Assembly (NCBI GenBank): GCA_030526005.1
Contig: JAUNDP010000016.1
Span: 4,103 to 53,006, forward strand
DNA: 48,904 nucleotides
Reading direction: 5' to 3'
DNA from: Eubacteriales bacterium
GTDB lineage: Bacteria; Bacillota; Clostridia; Lachnospirales; Lachnospiraceae
Below the pieces are notes generated by a model. The model was not told the origin of the DNA. It was given only the letters and a program-made list of their open reading frames with translations, and searched no databases. The stretch's first letter is position 1. Every line of letters begins with the position of its first letter. Made by a program: the position numbers and the translations under genes. This document shows, in pieces, positions 5,307-48,904 of this stretch.

Positions 5307-5410
5307 GATTATTAAAAAGACATCTGCACTCTTTTCTTTCTGTTTCGTATAATAATAGTATCGAATCAAGAGAACTTTTTTCTCGCTTATAAGAAAGGAT
5401 GAAAGATTGC

Positions 5411-6412
5411 ATGAAGAAAAAAATCGGTATTTTACTTCTCGCCTCGCTGTTTCTCTTTTCAGGCTCTGCTGCGCTTGCCTCTGAATCTGAAGAGAAGCTT
5501 ACTCCTGTCACTCTGAACGAAGTTGCTCACTCTATTTTCTATGCCCCGCAATATGCCGCAATCGAGCTGGGATATTTTGAAGAAGAAGGTCTGGATCTGG
5601 AACTTGTGACCGGATATGGAGCTGACAAAACGATGACTGCTGTTTTATCCGGAAATGCTGATATCGGATTTATGGGAGCGGAATCTTCTGTCTATGCTTA
5701 CAATCAGGGGGCTGATGATTATGTAGTCAATTTTGCCCAGCTGACACAGAGGGCTGGAAATTTTATTGTTGCCAGAAATCCAATGCCTGATTTTAAATGG
5801 GAGGATTTAAAAGGGAAAAATATTCTGGGTGGTCGAAAAGGCGGTATGCCACAGATGGTATTTGAATATATTCTGAAAAAACATGATATCGACCCTTTAT
5901 ACGATCTTTCGATTGATCAAAGTATTGATTTTGGTTCTACTGCCACTGCTTTTTCCGGTGGAAAAGGAGACTTTACGGTAGAGTTTGAACCGTCTGCCAC
6001 TGCCTTAGAGCAGGAAGGCGTCGGATATGTCGTCGCATCATGCGGCGTAGAGTCCGGATACGTTCCATATACCGCATACAGTGCAAAGCGCAGTTATCTG
6101 GAAGATCATCCTGACATTATTCAACGCTTTACAAATGCTCTCCAAAAGGGTATGGACTATGTCAACACGCATTCCCCTCGTCAGATTGCCACTGTCATTC
6201 AAAAACAGTTCCCTGAAAATGATCTGGAGACAATTATCACAATCGTGACACGATATAAAGAACAGGATACCTGGAAGGAAAATCTTATTTTTGAAGAAGA
6301 CAGCTTTTTGCTGCTTCAGGAAATTTTAAAAAGCGCCGGTGAGCTGGATGAGATGGTTTCCTACGACGCGCTCATCTCAACACAGTTTGCTGAAAATGCT
6401 CTGAAAAATTAA
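5411..6412 (+). CDS. NMT1/THI5-like ABC transporter substrate-binding protein (orphan)
   Basis: This 333-residue exported binding protein has a signal peptide (KKKIGILLLASLFLFSGSAALAS) with no lipobox cysteine. The mature part is NMT1/SsuA-like: the HSIFYAPQYAAIELGYFEEEG opening, a GADKTMTAVLSGNADIGFMG ligand-pocket block, and LKGKNILGGRKGGMP. Family members bind thiamine precursors, taurine/sulfonates, nitrate or aromatic compounds; the ligand cannot be read from sequence. No permease or ATPase gene lies beside it, since the next gene is convergent. The start is uncertain: the ATG at 5399 abuts AAGAAAGG, and the ATG at 5411 sits 12 nt from it, giving a cleaner signal peptide. A TATAAT at 5348-5353 is the likely -10. 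Confidence 0.85.
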   Translation: MKKKIGILLLASLFLFSGSAALASESEEKLTPVTLNEVAHSIFYAPQYAAIELGYFEEEGLDLELVTGYGADKTMTAVLSGNADIGFMGAESSVYAYNQGADDYVVNFAQLTQRAGNFIVARNPMPDFKWEDLKGKNILGGRKGGMPQMVFEYILKKHDIDPLYDLSIDQSIDFGSTATAFSGGKGDFTVEFEPSATALEQEGVGYVVASCGVESGYVPYTAYSAKRSYLEDHPDIIQRFTNALQKGMDYVNTHSPRQIATVIQKQFPENDLETIITIVTRYKEQDTWKENLIFEEDSFLLLQEILKSAGELDEMVSYDALISTQFAENALKN

Positions 6413-36100: not shown

Positions 36101-37186
36101 TTATTCTTCACTCCATTGTTTTAAAGCCTTTCTAAACGCATCGTCTGCTTTTTTGCGGTATAAAATCAGCTGCAGTTTCTTCTGCATCGGATCATTAAAC
36201 GGAAGCGCTCCTGCCGGAGTATCTGATTCATAGCGGAACAGATATACGCCGTTGCTACAGGCAATCGGATCTGTGATCTCTCCTTTTTCCTGTATTGCCA
36301 TCACTGCTTCAATGACCGGTTTTTCCCAGAAAATACTGTCTTTATGAATGTTCCATCCTGTTTTTTTATCTGCGCTGTATTTTTCAATCAGATCCTCAAA
36401 TGGTATTCCCTGTTCATACTCCTCTTTTATCTTCTGTGCGGTCTCCTGAACACTGGTCACAATTTCTGTTTGGATCTTTTTCGCTTTTTCTTCATCCACT
36501 TCTTTCTTTGACGCTCCATTTTTTTCATACAGAAGACTTTTCAGTTCATTTTGTTTTTGCTCATCTCCCTCAAGACGGATATGTGTCACAAATCGGTATC
36601 CCTGAGGAACATAATAAGCTACATCTCCAAATCTTGCGAGAACTCTTTCATATTCTGGAATATTTTGCGCAAATATCTTTTCATCTCTTGCTGTCAGATG
36701 GTCATACATCTGTCTGATCTCTTCTGCAGATACTTTGATTCCCTGCGCTGTGTATTCCTGAACACGGCTGAACACTTCCTGATTCATCATAGCAGCTGCC
36801 AGCGGTTCGCTGTTTGCAAATCCTCTTTGCGCCATATATTCTCTTGCCTTTTTTTCCGCTTCTTCTGCTGTCATCTTTGGATTTTGCTTTACTAATAAAG
36901 TACGGCACTCCTGATATGCTTGATTCCATTGTCTCTTTGCGATTTCTTCCAGTTTCTCTTTCTGTTCTTTCGTAAACTGGTCCAGCTTCAGTTCTTTCGC
37001 CTTTAAATGTGCAATCTTCATCTGAATCATCATTTCCTGTGCCTGTGTTTTTAACTGCTCTTCTTCCTGTTCTGTGATTGGTGCACGTCTCTGTCTTTGA
37101 TATACTCTTTTTAAGTATTTCTTACACATTTCCACATCTGATTCATAAATTTTCTGTCCTTTTACGATTGCTGCCACTTTTTTCAT
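36101..37186 (-). CDS. SurA/parvulin-like foldase without signal peptide
   Basis: This 361-residue protein has a helical SurA_N-type region (about residues 1-150) and a parvulin-like region (GYRFVTHIRLEGDEQKQNEL ... EYEQGIPFEDLIEKYSADKKTGWNIHKDSIFW ... GEITDPIACSNGVYLFRYESD). The sequence is clearly related to the exported protein at 42506-43774 over nearly the whole length, but starts at the position corresponding to that protein's mature N-terminus: no signal peptide, MKKVAAIVKGQKIY. It should be cytoplasmic unless exported by another route. It opens an operon with the LytTR/GHKL pair. The ribosome site AAGGAG is good. Confidence 0.8.
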   Translation of the reverse strand: MKKVAAIVKGQKIYESDVEMCKKYLKRVYQRQRRAPITEQEEEQLKTQAQEMMIQMKIAHLKAKELKLDQFTKEQKEKLEEIAKRQWNQAYQECRTLLVKQNPKMTAEEAEKKAREYMAQRGFANSEPLAAAMMNQEVFSRVQEYTAQGIKVSAEEIRQMYDHLTARDEKIFAQNIPEYERVLARFGDVAYYVPQGYRFVTHIRLEGDEQKQNELKSLLYEKNGASKKEVDEEKAKKIQTEIVTSVQETAQKIKEEYEQGIPFEDLIEKYSADKKTGWNIHKDSIFWEKPVIEAVMAIQEKGEITDPIACSNGVYLFRYESDTPAGALPFNDPMQKKLQLILYRKKADDAFRKALKQWSEE

Positions 37187-42505: not shown

Positions 42506-43774
42506 CTATCCTATATACTGAATATCATATTCTCCAGCCCACTCATGGATCATGGATGAGAATTTCTCATTTTGCGCCTGAGAAAGCAATTCCGCATGGA
42601 GATTTTCTTTTAATGTGTCAGTGTATTCAATCGGTCCACCCTTAATATCAGAATCATAATATAAGATATAAACACCATCTGCACACACTACTGGTTCACT
42701 GATTTCTCCAATCTTTTCAACTGCCATCGCTGTATCTACGAAATCTTTATCCCAGAAAATACTGTCTTTATGTACGCTGTATCCGATATAATTTGTGTCA
42801 GAAGCATCTGCACTGTATTCTTTCATCAAATCTTCAAATGATTCTTTCTCTTTAAATTTGGTTTCGATTTCATCCACGGTATCCTGCACATCAGACAGAA
42901 TTTCATCCTTTAATTGCTGGATTTCTTTTTCCTGCTGCGCATTTGCCGCGGTAGCGTCTGCTGCTGTTGCCTCAGAATACATCAGTTCCTGAAGTTCTCC
43001 TAATTTTTCTTCATCTGCATCCAGACGAATATGATTAAAATAACGATATCCCTCCGGAATATAATAAGAAGCATTTGAGCCATATGCTGCAATCGCCTGC
43101 TCATACAAAGGAACATTGTCCGCAAAAGATTCCTGATCTAAAGCTACATATTCCTCATAAGTCTCTTTTACTTCTTCCTCTGACACAGATACATCTGCAA
43201 TACAATATTCCTGCAGACGACGAAATACTTCATCATTTTTCAGCTGTTCAAACAACAGATCGCTTGTGGCATATCCATACTGAGCCATTGTTTCTTTTGC
43301 TTTCTCTTCTGCATCTTTTTCTTCCAGCGAAGCATCCTGTGCCATATACAGGGATTTGTAAATCTCAAATGACTCATCCCACTGTTCCTGTGCCTGTTTT
43401 TTTAACTCTTCCAATTCTTCTTCGGTAAATTCATCCAGATTCAGTTCCTGTGCTTTTAGTTCTGTAATTCTAAGCTGAACCAGCATATTCATAGCGGTAT
43501 CTACAATGTGATTCTGAACCGTTTCATCTGTCGTATCATATCCGCTGCTTTGATACTGCTGTAAAATATATTGTGTCATCGCCACCAGTTCAGACTGATA
43601 AATTTCTTCTCCTTCCACAGTTGCCATCACTGGATCTTTTTCTGCCTCTGCGCTTTTTTCTGATGTCGCCTCTGTTGTTTTCTCTGTCTCCTGACTTTCT
43701 GCTGACACTGCAGTTCCTGTAAAGATCATGCCTGTTGCAAGCACACATGCAAGCATTCTCATTCTTTTTTTCAT
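42506..43774 (-). CDS. Exported SurA/parvulin-like foldase
   Basis: This 422-residue protein has a signal peptide (KKRMRMLACVLATGMIFTGTAVSAES), a Thr/Glu/Ala-rich linker, a SurA_N-like helical region beginning VMATVEGEEIYQSEL, and a parvulin-like region (YRYFNHIRLDADEEKLGEL ... KEKESFEDLMKEYSADASDTNYIGYSVHKDSIFWDKDFVDTAMAV ... GEISEPVVCADGVYILYYDSD). Probable chaperone/isomerase for exported proteins outside the membrane. It is a close relative of the signal-less protein at 36101-37186. The ribosome site GGAGG is present. Separate transcription unit. Confidence 0.88.
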   Translation of the reverse strand: MKKRMRMLACVLATGMIFTGTAVSAESQETEKTTEATSEKSAEAEKDPVMATVEGEEIYQSELVAMTQYILQQYQSSGYDTTDETVQNHIVDTAMNMLVQLRITELKAQELNLDEFTEEELEELKKQAQEQWDESFEIYKSLYMAQDASLEEKDAEEKAKETMAQYGYATSDLLFEQLKNDEVFRRLQEYCIADVSVSEEEVKETYEEYVALDQESFADNVPLYEQAIAAYGSNASYYIPEGYRYFNHIRLDADEEKLGELQELMYSEATAADATAANAQQEKEIQQLKDEILSDVQDTVDEIETKFKEKESFEDLMKEYSADASDTNYIGYSVHKDSIFWDKDFVDTAMAVEKIGEISEPVVCADGVYILYYDSDIKGGPIEYTDTLKENLHAELLSQAQNEKFSSMIHEWAGEYDIQYIG

Positions 43775-44108
43775 CCTAAATACCTCCGTTATCAGAGTTG
43801 TCCTCTCTCTTTTTTTCTATTTCACATTTTACCTCTTTTCTTTTTGTTATTCCATACAATTTTTTCTCATATATGTTGGATTTTTATTAATTTTTTCTAC
43901 TTTTTATTTTTTTCCAAAAATTTTTTTGACGTTTTTTACAATTTTCTATTTTCTTCATCCATCAAATGCTCTCTTACGCTATCCTCTTTTTTGTGTCTTA
44001 TATACTCAATTTTTCTTTTATTTCTCTAATATTTTCTATCATTTTTTCTTTTCCATTAAGCTCTCCCCCTGCCCTTTCGCACTTTTTTAATGAAATTGTA
44101 TATTTTTT
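43775..44108. other. AT-rich intergenic region with a possible remnant of a divergent gene
   Basis: The part next to the foldase gene is its leader. Around 44000-44075 the minus strand has GGGGGAGAGC followed by an ATG that is stopped after a few codons (MEKKK), then short frames reading MIENIREIKEKLSI and REHLMDEENRKL. This may be the eroded start of a small regulator gene, but no family can be named. Nothing else seen. Confidence 0.3.
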
Positions 44109-44158
44109 ATATTGACCGCATGGTCTATTAAATATATAATAGACCATGCGGTCAATAT
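44109..44158. repeat. 50-nt palindrome (operator) over the RelQ-like/antiporter promoter
   Basis: Perfect 22-bp inverted arms (44109-44130 and 44137-44158) with a 6-nt AT centre. Each arm contains its own imperfect dyad, GACCGCATGGTC (44114-44125) and GACCATGCGGTC (44142-44153), 28 bp apart centre to centre. It covers the whole promoter from -35 to just past the start site, so a bound repressor would block it. The paired dyads look like TetR-family operators; this is an inference. Confidence 0.75.
44112..44140 (+). promoter_or_regulatory. Promoter of the RelQ-like/antiporter operon
   Basis: TTGACC (44112-44117), 17 bp, TATAAT (44135-44140), entirely inside the palindrome. Because of the symmetry the minus strand also has TTGACC with a TTTAAT at 17 bp, so transcription could be divergent. 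Confidence 0.75.
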
Positions 44159-44183
44159 TTAATCTTTTCTGCAATAAACGTTT

Positions 44184-44208
44184 AAGCATTAAAAAAGATG
44201 CTTTTTCA
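44184..44208 (+). terminator. Weak hairpin with T-run in the leader
   Basis: AAGCAT/ATGCTT (44184-44189 with 44198-44203) followed by TTTC, about 95 bases before the first start codon. Too weak to call an attenuator with certainty. Confidence 0.3.
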
Positions 44209-44296
44209 GAAACATTGAGAACAGACGATCTAACAAAAAAATCAAAAAAATCGAATTTCATGCCGTATCATATTATAAAACAACAGGAGGAATAGG

Positions 44297-44680
44297 ATGG
44301 ATTACAGTGAAAAAAATGTTACTTTTGATAAGCTAATTACTTTAGAAGAGCCTCAAAAATTTATTGAATCAGCTTATCCTTTCATGAAGCTGATGATGCA
44401 GTATCAATGCGCCATGCTGGAAGTTCAAACAAAATTTGAAGTGTTGAACCAGCAGCTTTCTCTTGAAAGTGATAGGAATCCTATTGAGTCTATCTCCTGC
44501 CGTCTAAAAAAGCCAATCAGCATTATTGAAAAACTGAAACGAAAAAATCTTGGTCAAAAAGCGGCAGATATTTTAGAAAAGCTACGCGTCTGTGCAGAAG
44601 GGATTCATTCTCTTGATCTGCAGATGCAGGAAATCGGAGAATTTATAGCGCTGCACCGCAGAGAGGAGTCGAAAGAATGA
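44297..44680 (+). CDS. RelQ-like protein lacking the (p)ppGpp synthetase core
   Basis: This 127-residue protein joins two parts that flank the catalytic domain in small alarmone synthetases (RelQ/YjbM type). Residues 28-85 (FMKLMMQYQCAMLEVQTKFEVL ... NPIESISCRLKKPISIIEKLKRKNLG) match the N-terminal helices; residues 86-120 (QKAADILEKLRVCAEGIHSLDLQMQEIGEFIA) match the C-terminal helix pair that makes the oligomer. The central RelA_SpoT region (about 100 residues with the GYRSLH and EIQxRT motifs) is absent, so it cannot make (p)ppGpp. The frame is open, with a good AGGAGG, and its stop overlaps the antiporter start (ATGA). Function unknown; it could regulate the antiporter or bind a full-length RelQ. 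Confidence 0.75.
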   Translation: MDYSEKNVTFDKLITLEEPQKFIESAYPFMKLMMQYQCAMLEVQTKFEVLNQQLSLESDRNPIESISCRLKKPISIIEKLKRKNLGQKAADILEKLRVCAEGIHSLDLQMQEIGEFIALHRREESKE

Positions 44681-45930: not shown

Positions 45931-45973
45931 GTCATGGAAATCAAAAATATAAACATATCATCTCAGAGTCAGA

Positions 45974-46010
45974 GAAGGAGCTGTGGAAAAACAGCTCCTT
46001 CTTATTTTTA
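45974..46010 (+). terminator. Terminator after the antiporter gene
   Basis: A perfect 11-bp stem (45974-45984 with 45991-46001) with a 6-nt loop, followed by TTATTTTTA. Confidence 0.8.
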
Positions 46011-48779: not shown

Positions 48780-48904
48780 ATCGGGTAGGAGGTAAATAAT
48801 TAATTTATTTACCGTCCTCCCACACCACCGTACATACGGTTCCGTATACGGCGGTTCCTTAGTTTTCACAAACTACCAGATAATAGTCAAGCATGGACGT
48901 ATAT
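48780..48904 (-). mobile_element. Group II intron, 3' end (domains V and VI; runs off window)
   Basis: On the minus strand 48824-48855 folds as a domain V: a 9-bp lower stem with one G-U pair, a 2-nt bulge on the 3' side, a short upper stem and a 4-nt loop. Next, 48783-48821 folds as a domain VI: GGG/CCC, AGGA/TCCT and a 9-bp stem, with an unpaired A at 48786 in the branch-point position. The intron would end near 48780, about 36 bases before the TrpX-type start codon. The GTACGGTGGTGTG-type sequence is characteristic of bacterial group II introns. Confidence 0.8.
48859..48904 (-). CDS. Probable C-terminus of the intron-encoded reverse transcriptase/maturase (partial)
   Basis: The last 14 codons of a frame entering from beyond the window read YTSMLDYYLVVCEN and stop at 48859-48861, just before domain V, which is where maturase frames of many bacterial group II introns end. 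Only position supports the call. Confidence 0.4.
   Translation of the reverse strand, partial: YTSMLDYYLVVCEN

Follow-up and report, generated by a model that had tools for sequence, protein, structure and literature searches.

The 127-residue open reading frame directly upstream of a cation/proton antiporter gene in the analysed window, a 48,904-nucleotide stretch of a Lachnospiraceae draft genome, is a real in-frame deletion derivative, observed once, of a RelP-like small alarmone synthetase (SAS) gene. Judged from sequence comparison, it is probably the remnant of an accessory gene of a TetR-type antiporter operon that was inactivated by deletion of its catalytic core, with the frame kept or tolerated by translational coupling, and a selected function of the 127-residue protein as such is improbable. 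The features of the operon are compiled in Table 1.

Table 1. Features of the antiporter operon, in positions of the window
Feature	Position	Strand	Remarks
Near-perfect palindrome, 50 bp, two GACC....GGTC sites	44109..44158	+	25-nt arms, 96% complementary
Open reading frame, 127 residues, ATG start	44297-44680	+	Clean frame; GGAGG upstream
N-terminal part, RelP/RelQ-type SAS, residues 1-85	44297..44551	+	Profile, PDB, tblastn, alignments
Predicted deletion junction, codons 83-86, AAA AAT CTT GGT	44543..44554	+	104 codons short compared with full-length homologues
Synthetase C-terminal part, residues 86-127 with stop; includes a ribosome-site-like stretch (GAGGAG) ahead of the antiporter	44552..44680	+	
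CPA2-type cation/proton antiporter, 417 residues	44677..45930	+	Pfam PF00999 at residues 13-362, E 3.4e-21; start overlaps the upstream stop
Terminator-like hairpin after the antiporter	45972..46003	+	One of three sites of this type in the region, against 1.7 expected from shuffles

The 127-residue protein retrieved 12 loci from the genome collection, the four closest of which (L041, Blautia sp. XA-2221; L042, a Lachnospiraceae MAG; L043, B. caecimuris; L044, Parablautia sp. Marseille-Q6255) are 69-77% identical in the N-terminal part. L041-L043 are the closest relatives with an open frame, 229-231 residues long and with both catalytic motifs. Homology of both ends to one such full-length gene places the window frame, by descent, among the RelP/RelQ small alarmone synthetases. 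Residues 31-88 match the NCBIfam model NF053588 (YjbM-type GTP diphosphokinase) with an E value of 1.3e-7, far below the cut-off of the model, as are four full-length controls as well, residues 17-94 match solved RelP/RelQ chains in a PDB sequence search (best E 1.8e-5), and tblastn aligns residues 75-122 with the C-terminal end of the full-length L041-L043 (53-61% identity, E 9e-10 to 1e-11). Upon alignment with the full-length relatives, besides small differences at both protein ends, a single large gap of 104 columns opens after R82, with K83-N84-L85-G86 as the junction residues. The preliminary description of this DNA had recognized SAS N- and C-terminal segments joined without the catalytic core in a clean frame, the stop of which overlaps the antiporter start. 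Both observations are borne out, the former by profile, tblastn, alignments and the absence of the catalytic motifs, the latter by the TGA that overlaps the antiporter ATG at 44677 (ATGA). The two ends are, however, not fused, as had been worded there, but brought together by a deletion inside one gene according to the alignment.

The motifs GYRSxH and ExQxRT define the RelP/RelQ small alarmone synthetases. When searched for with loosened patterns, both are present in all 47 full-length rows (among which one gene appears twice, and before which nine rows had been skipped by length and three loci, namely window copies and a duplicate, excluded by name) and both are missing from the 127-residue protein. 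Likewise, the Pfam domain RelA_SpoT (PF04607) gives no match to this protein at E<=10 and is recovered in four full-length controls with E values of 6e-28 to 4e-35. With the whole domain lost, the product is not expected to make (p)ppGpp. A deep alignment of 47 sequences (A1) matched the window protein's C-terminal part to the core and was discarded as misaligned; tblastn and the alignments with close relatives agree on the C-terminus. Another candidate, L006 (206 residues), aligned to residues 16-124, yet carries both catalytic motifs and is no core-less case.

Regarding the type of synthetase, the preliminary description had named RelQ, of which the SAS ancestry stands, but not the assignment, as the parent, tested as the L043 gene, is nearer to RelP/YwaC by PDB sequence score (E 4e-50 to 7e-50, versus E around 4e-32 for RelQ/YjbM). 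With RelP/YwaC (SAS2; 6EWZ, 6FGJ and 6FGK), the window protein has the N- and C-terminal segments in common, but is devoid of the core with GYRSxH and ExQxRT. The entries 6EWZ and 6FGJ, labelled GTP pyrophosphokinase in the database, we take to be RelP of S. aureus. RelQ/YjbM (SAS1) is of the same enzyme family, as seen in the NF053588 match, but the parent scores lower against the YjbM chains and the core is again what the window protein is missing. The host genome encodes at least three intact SAS genes; the host gene nearest to YjbM (L004, E 6e-61) is located elsewhere in the genome, and the closest intact host SAS shows 42% identity over residues 11-97 of the window protein.

At the junction, the short A-rich sequence AAAAAT.TTGA is common to the N-terminal edge in L044 and the C-terminal edge in L041. 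A deletion by slippage between repeats can only be inferred, because no one relative carries both edges. The same edges bear on the concern that two distant parts of a normal gene were joined by an assembly error, for which the genome, a draft of 68 contigs, leaves some room. The edge similarity comprises, however, about ten bases pieced together from different relatives, and usual assembly overlaps are longer than about ten bases, which makes an artificial junction highly improbable.

The distribution of the core-less form has been assessed in several overlapping draws of genomes, the counts of which are not summed. Among 299 family genomes, where a frame of more than 200 residues was counted as full length and the motifs were checked in the 47 rows only, 145 matches at E<=1e-12 included three open frames of less than 200 residues, namely that of the window and those of G075 and G256; the latter two were rejected as further core-less cases, G075 being cut at a contig end and G256 frameshifted. 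A 202-residue frame with internal stops (G297:C25:41245) was encountered in the same survey. In the genus of L044 (47 genomes), 24 matches at E<=1e-14 are shorter than 200 residues only in the broken gene of L044 itself and in one gene at a contig start, while the three matches at E<=1e-24 in the genus of L043 (64 genomes) are the L041-L043 genes. An order-wide draw of 392 genomes gave, besides that of the window, 25 genomes with a match at E<=1e-20, all in open frames of 223-286 residues. The two other genomes of the same genus as the host possess SAS genes that reach at most 41% identity in the part that matches, and an antiporter at E<=1e-90 is absent from both. As to mobile copies, five plasmid and five phage-collection records match the N-terminal part only, and viral contigs gave no match. 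A deletion of a normal gene in one lineage, which the preliminary description had set against its own proposal of a selected scaffold, is largely what these genomes display: the L041-L043 genes are full length, that of L044 is frameshifted and no second core-less copy was found across the family, genus and order-wide draws.

The Na_H_Exchanger domain (PF00999) covers most of the antiporter, and NCBIfam TIGR00932 matches below its cut-off. A same-locus relative is L044 of Parablautia, where, as in the window, an operator-like palindrome is located upstream and a synthetase gene stands directly before the antiporter, which is 78% identical to that of the window. In contrast to the window operon, which is devoid of an adjacent TetR gene and of the synthetase core, the L044 locus starts with a TetR gene (5355-5984) and harbours a full-length synthetase gene (L044:5956-6700) with a frameshift, whereby the open frame is limited to 154 residues and homology resumes in another frame. 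Thus, both genomes found with a synthetase directly before this antiporter have lost the synthetase. Within 397 family genomes, a close antiporter (E<=1e-90) is encoded in 28, the host genome included, at 29 places, for which flanks of about 1.5 kb were considered, a contig end truncating some of the loci. A TetR of the L044 type, as detected by tblastn, accompanies 21 of those 29 antiporter loci, upstream on the same strand in 20 and downstream in L062, versus SAS genes in two, the window and L081. In L081, an intact synthetase is located further upstream, with an opposite-strand gene that looks like TetR by eye in between. By these frequencies, TetR plus antiporter is the usual cassette and the synthetase an occasional extra. 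The survey of the gene preceding CPA antiporters that the preliminary description had proposed returned, for the close antiporter relatives, mostly loci devoid of SAS. The family cassettes share the antiporter and, in part, the two-site palindrome with the window, but 27 of 29 loci gave no SAS hit, some of them being truncated at contig ends, and TetR, adjacent in most, does not stand beside the window operon.

The palindrome upstream of the 127-residue frame is a probable TetR-type operator/promoter, as suggested by its sequence. It overlaps a TTGACC-17-TATAAT promoter-like match (11/12), with promoter-like sites not commoner in the region than in shuffles, and scores as terminator-like too. 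Its 12-mer is present in two copies in the window, where a mean of 0.08 was expected and one of 100 shuffles had two; no other exact copy exists in the genome. Upstream of TetR, the best palindrome is a two-site element in eight of 22 loci (L044, L056, L061, L064, L073, L074, L075 and L079), and in the remaining 14 it is one site alone, a pair of lesser strength or another type of element. The window keeps a putative two-site palindromic operator in the absence of an adjacent TetR, of which neither a match nor a remnant was found in window positions 43781-44300. The nearest TetR homologue of the host is encoded on contig 18 (G000:C18:44517; 50% identity to the L044 TetR, TetR_N by Pfam); upstream of it, there is only a half-site-like TTGACTCTATAGTC stretch with 25 of 46 positions matching, which is probably not the same operator.

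Can the clean frame be taken as an indication of selection? In the two other frames, the C-terminal part runs into stops at 44576 and 44616, which leave distances of 101 and 61 bases to the antiporter start codon (44677), so that the in-frame deletion preserves the coupling to the antiporter. As coupling is kept and an in-frame outcome is expected in one of three cases by chance, the clean frame can be explained without a function of the protein. A related explanation holds that the frame has been selected as a translated leader, which couples ribosome flow to the antiporter irrespective of the protein sequence. The ATGA overlap and the GAGGAG ribosome-site-like stretch inside the frame are consistent with such a role, as is the finding that translation extends to the antiporter start in no frame but the observed one, although this is no proof with a chance of one in three in the absence of selection. 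On the other hand, 27 of 29 antiporter loci show no SAS gene, and the RNA at the start of the antiporter gene does not fold more strongly than shuffled sequence (z 0.94 and -1.05). Coupling is also not essential, because the broken frame of L044 stops 277 bases upstream of its antiporter, and a leader leaves the retained protein residues described below unexplained. A selected leader is considered unlikely.

Constraint on the protein was assessed with a home-made codon model (109 codons, seven sequences, two topologies). Over all 109 codons, the window branch has an omega of 0.23, which is not significantly different from the background value of 0.02 (LRT 2.29; second topology 2.76), and omega 1 is not rejected for the window branch (LRT 0.15; 0.25). 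For the N-terminal part alone, the window branch lies above the background (LRT 5.26; 5.75), with an estimate that ran to the upper bound and omega 1 not rejected, while the C-terminal part alone leans to constraint (omega 0.09, LRT against omega 1 of 2.99). The window and L044 branches jointly are equal to the background and reject omega 1 (LRT 65.7 and 8.4 for the two topologies). Of the control branches, L043 does not reject omega 1 either and L041 departs from the background in the other direction (N-terminal part, LRT 7.36). The codon result, a weak and mixed test, may thus lean to relaxed constraint for the N-terminal part only. Of the columns that do not vary among seven full-length relatives, the window protein keeps 34 of 34, and of those where at least six of the seven agree, 45 of 48; with a frame devoid of stops, a good ribosome site and all 34 invariant residues retained, no decay is visible.

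Structure prediction, as proposed in the preliminary description, gave an AlphaFold monomer of the fragment alone, built with the 8-sequence alignment A2 as the sole alignment, that has no confident overall fold (mean pLDDT 65, pTM 0.36) and no match in the PDB at E<=0.001 (best E 3.0). The model comprises helices at residues 19-57, 73-82 and 87-126, with a block of pLDDT 76-80 over residues 91-120.

These data are relevant for the suggestion that the fragment has been selected as a non-enzymatic SAS protein, the interface helices of which would assemble with intact RelP/RelQ-type enzymes and thereby reduce or divert the activity of these in a dominant-negative manner, with expression tied to the antiporter operon. 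In the RelP/RelQ tetramer, the medial interface involves alpha1 and the lateral one alpha5/alpha6 (PMC5794853), and, judging from the alignments, the window protein would retain these interface helices. Three intact SAS partners in the genome, the 34 retained invariant residues, the lean of the C-terminal codons to constraint and the long model helices 19-57 and 87-126 are compatible with such a role. Opposed to it are the singleton status among the genomes drawn, the fold that is not confident and the N-terminal codons with their lean to relaxed constraint. Mixed assembly with the host SAS is doubtful, because the closest intact host enzyme is only 42% identical over the matched residues, and no dominant-negative case of this kind was found among the open-licence papers searched; nor did titles and abstract openings, among the matches listed, report a synthetase combined with an antiporter, an operon, TetR, a dominant-negative effect or truncation. 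Selection of a dominant-negative fragment is rated as quite unlikely. The wider proposal of the preliminary description, selection for a non-enzymatic scaffold or an antiporter subunit, finds no support in a singleton with a frameshifted counterpart in L044 and no confident fold.

The preferred reading of the frame as an inactivated accessory gene can be pictured as follows. The parent synthetase would have been an accessory gene of an antiporter operon of the TetR type with the order operator-promoter, TetR, synthetase and antiporter, as in Parablautia. In this lineage, the in-frame loss of 104 codons, visible in the alignment, removed the catalytic core, possibly via a slip between the short A-rich repeats, and the related TetR on another contig may act in trans. 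What is left of the frame has probably been tolerated, or retained, as ribosomes would run from it into the overlapping antiporter start. The locus then exemplifies how an enzyme gene within an operon is lost through in-frame deletion, and it cautions against reading a clean frame as proof of selection if a gene overlaps the next one. The position of the synthetase directly before a cation/proton antiporter in two genomes, broken in both, hints at a past tie between alarmone synthesis and ion stress in these bacteria. That a recently born core-less fragment inserts its interface helices into intact RelP/RelQ-type enzymes and lowers alarmone synthesis when the antiporter operon is on is very improbable, but, if it were true that the fragment inhibits intact enzymes, alarmone levels would be adjusted there by a novel mechanism.

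Other features have been observed alongside. In two Blautia-type genomes, a frame of 92-101 residues (L042:5666-5971 and L043:5684-5962) is located immediately 5' of the synthetase orthologue and carries a STNGGGENSP-LEGEDDFYELFFAGL tail that is nearly identical in both. A response-regulator receiver domain is combined with a complete SAS domain in one protein of two Lachnospiraceae MAGs (L047:5509-6642 and L049:1796-2878; Pfam Response_reg and RelA_SpoT), possibly a two-component-controlled alarmone synthetase; the one paper that the literature search listed deals with another subject, judging by its title. In the window, a group II intron end (48780-48856, minus strand; Rfam RF00029) at the right border is the sole Rfam match. 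Two proteins encoded on the minus strand at 36101-37186 and 42506-43774, which look alike by eye and of which the latter has a PPIC-type rotamase match and the former no Pfam match, are located near a gene for a family 3 glycosyl hydrolase and near regulators that look, by eye, like LytTR.
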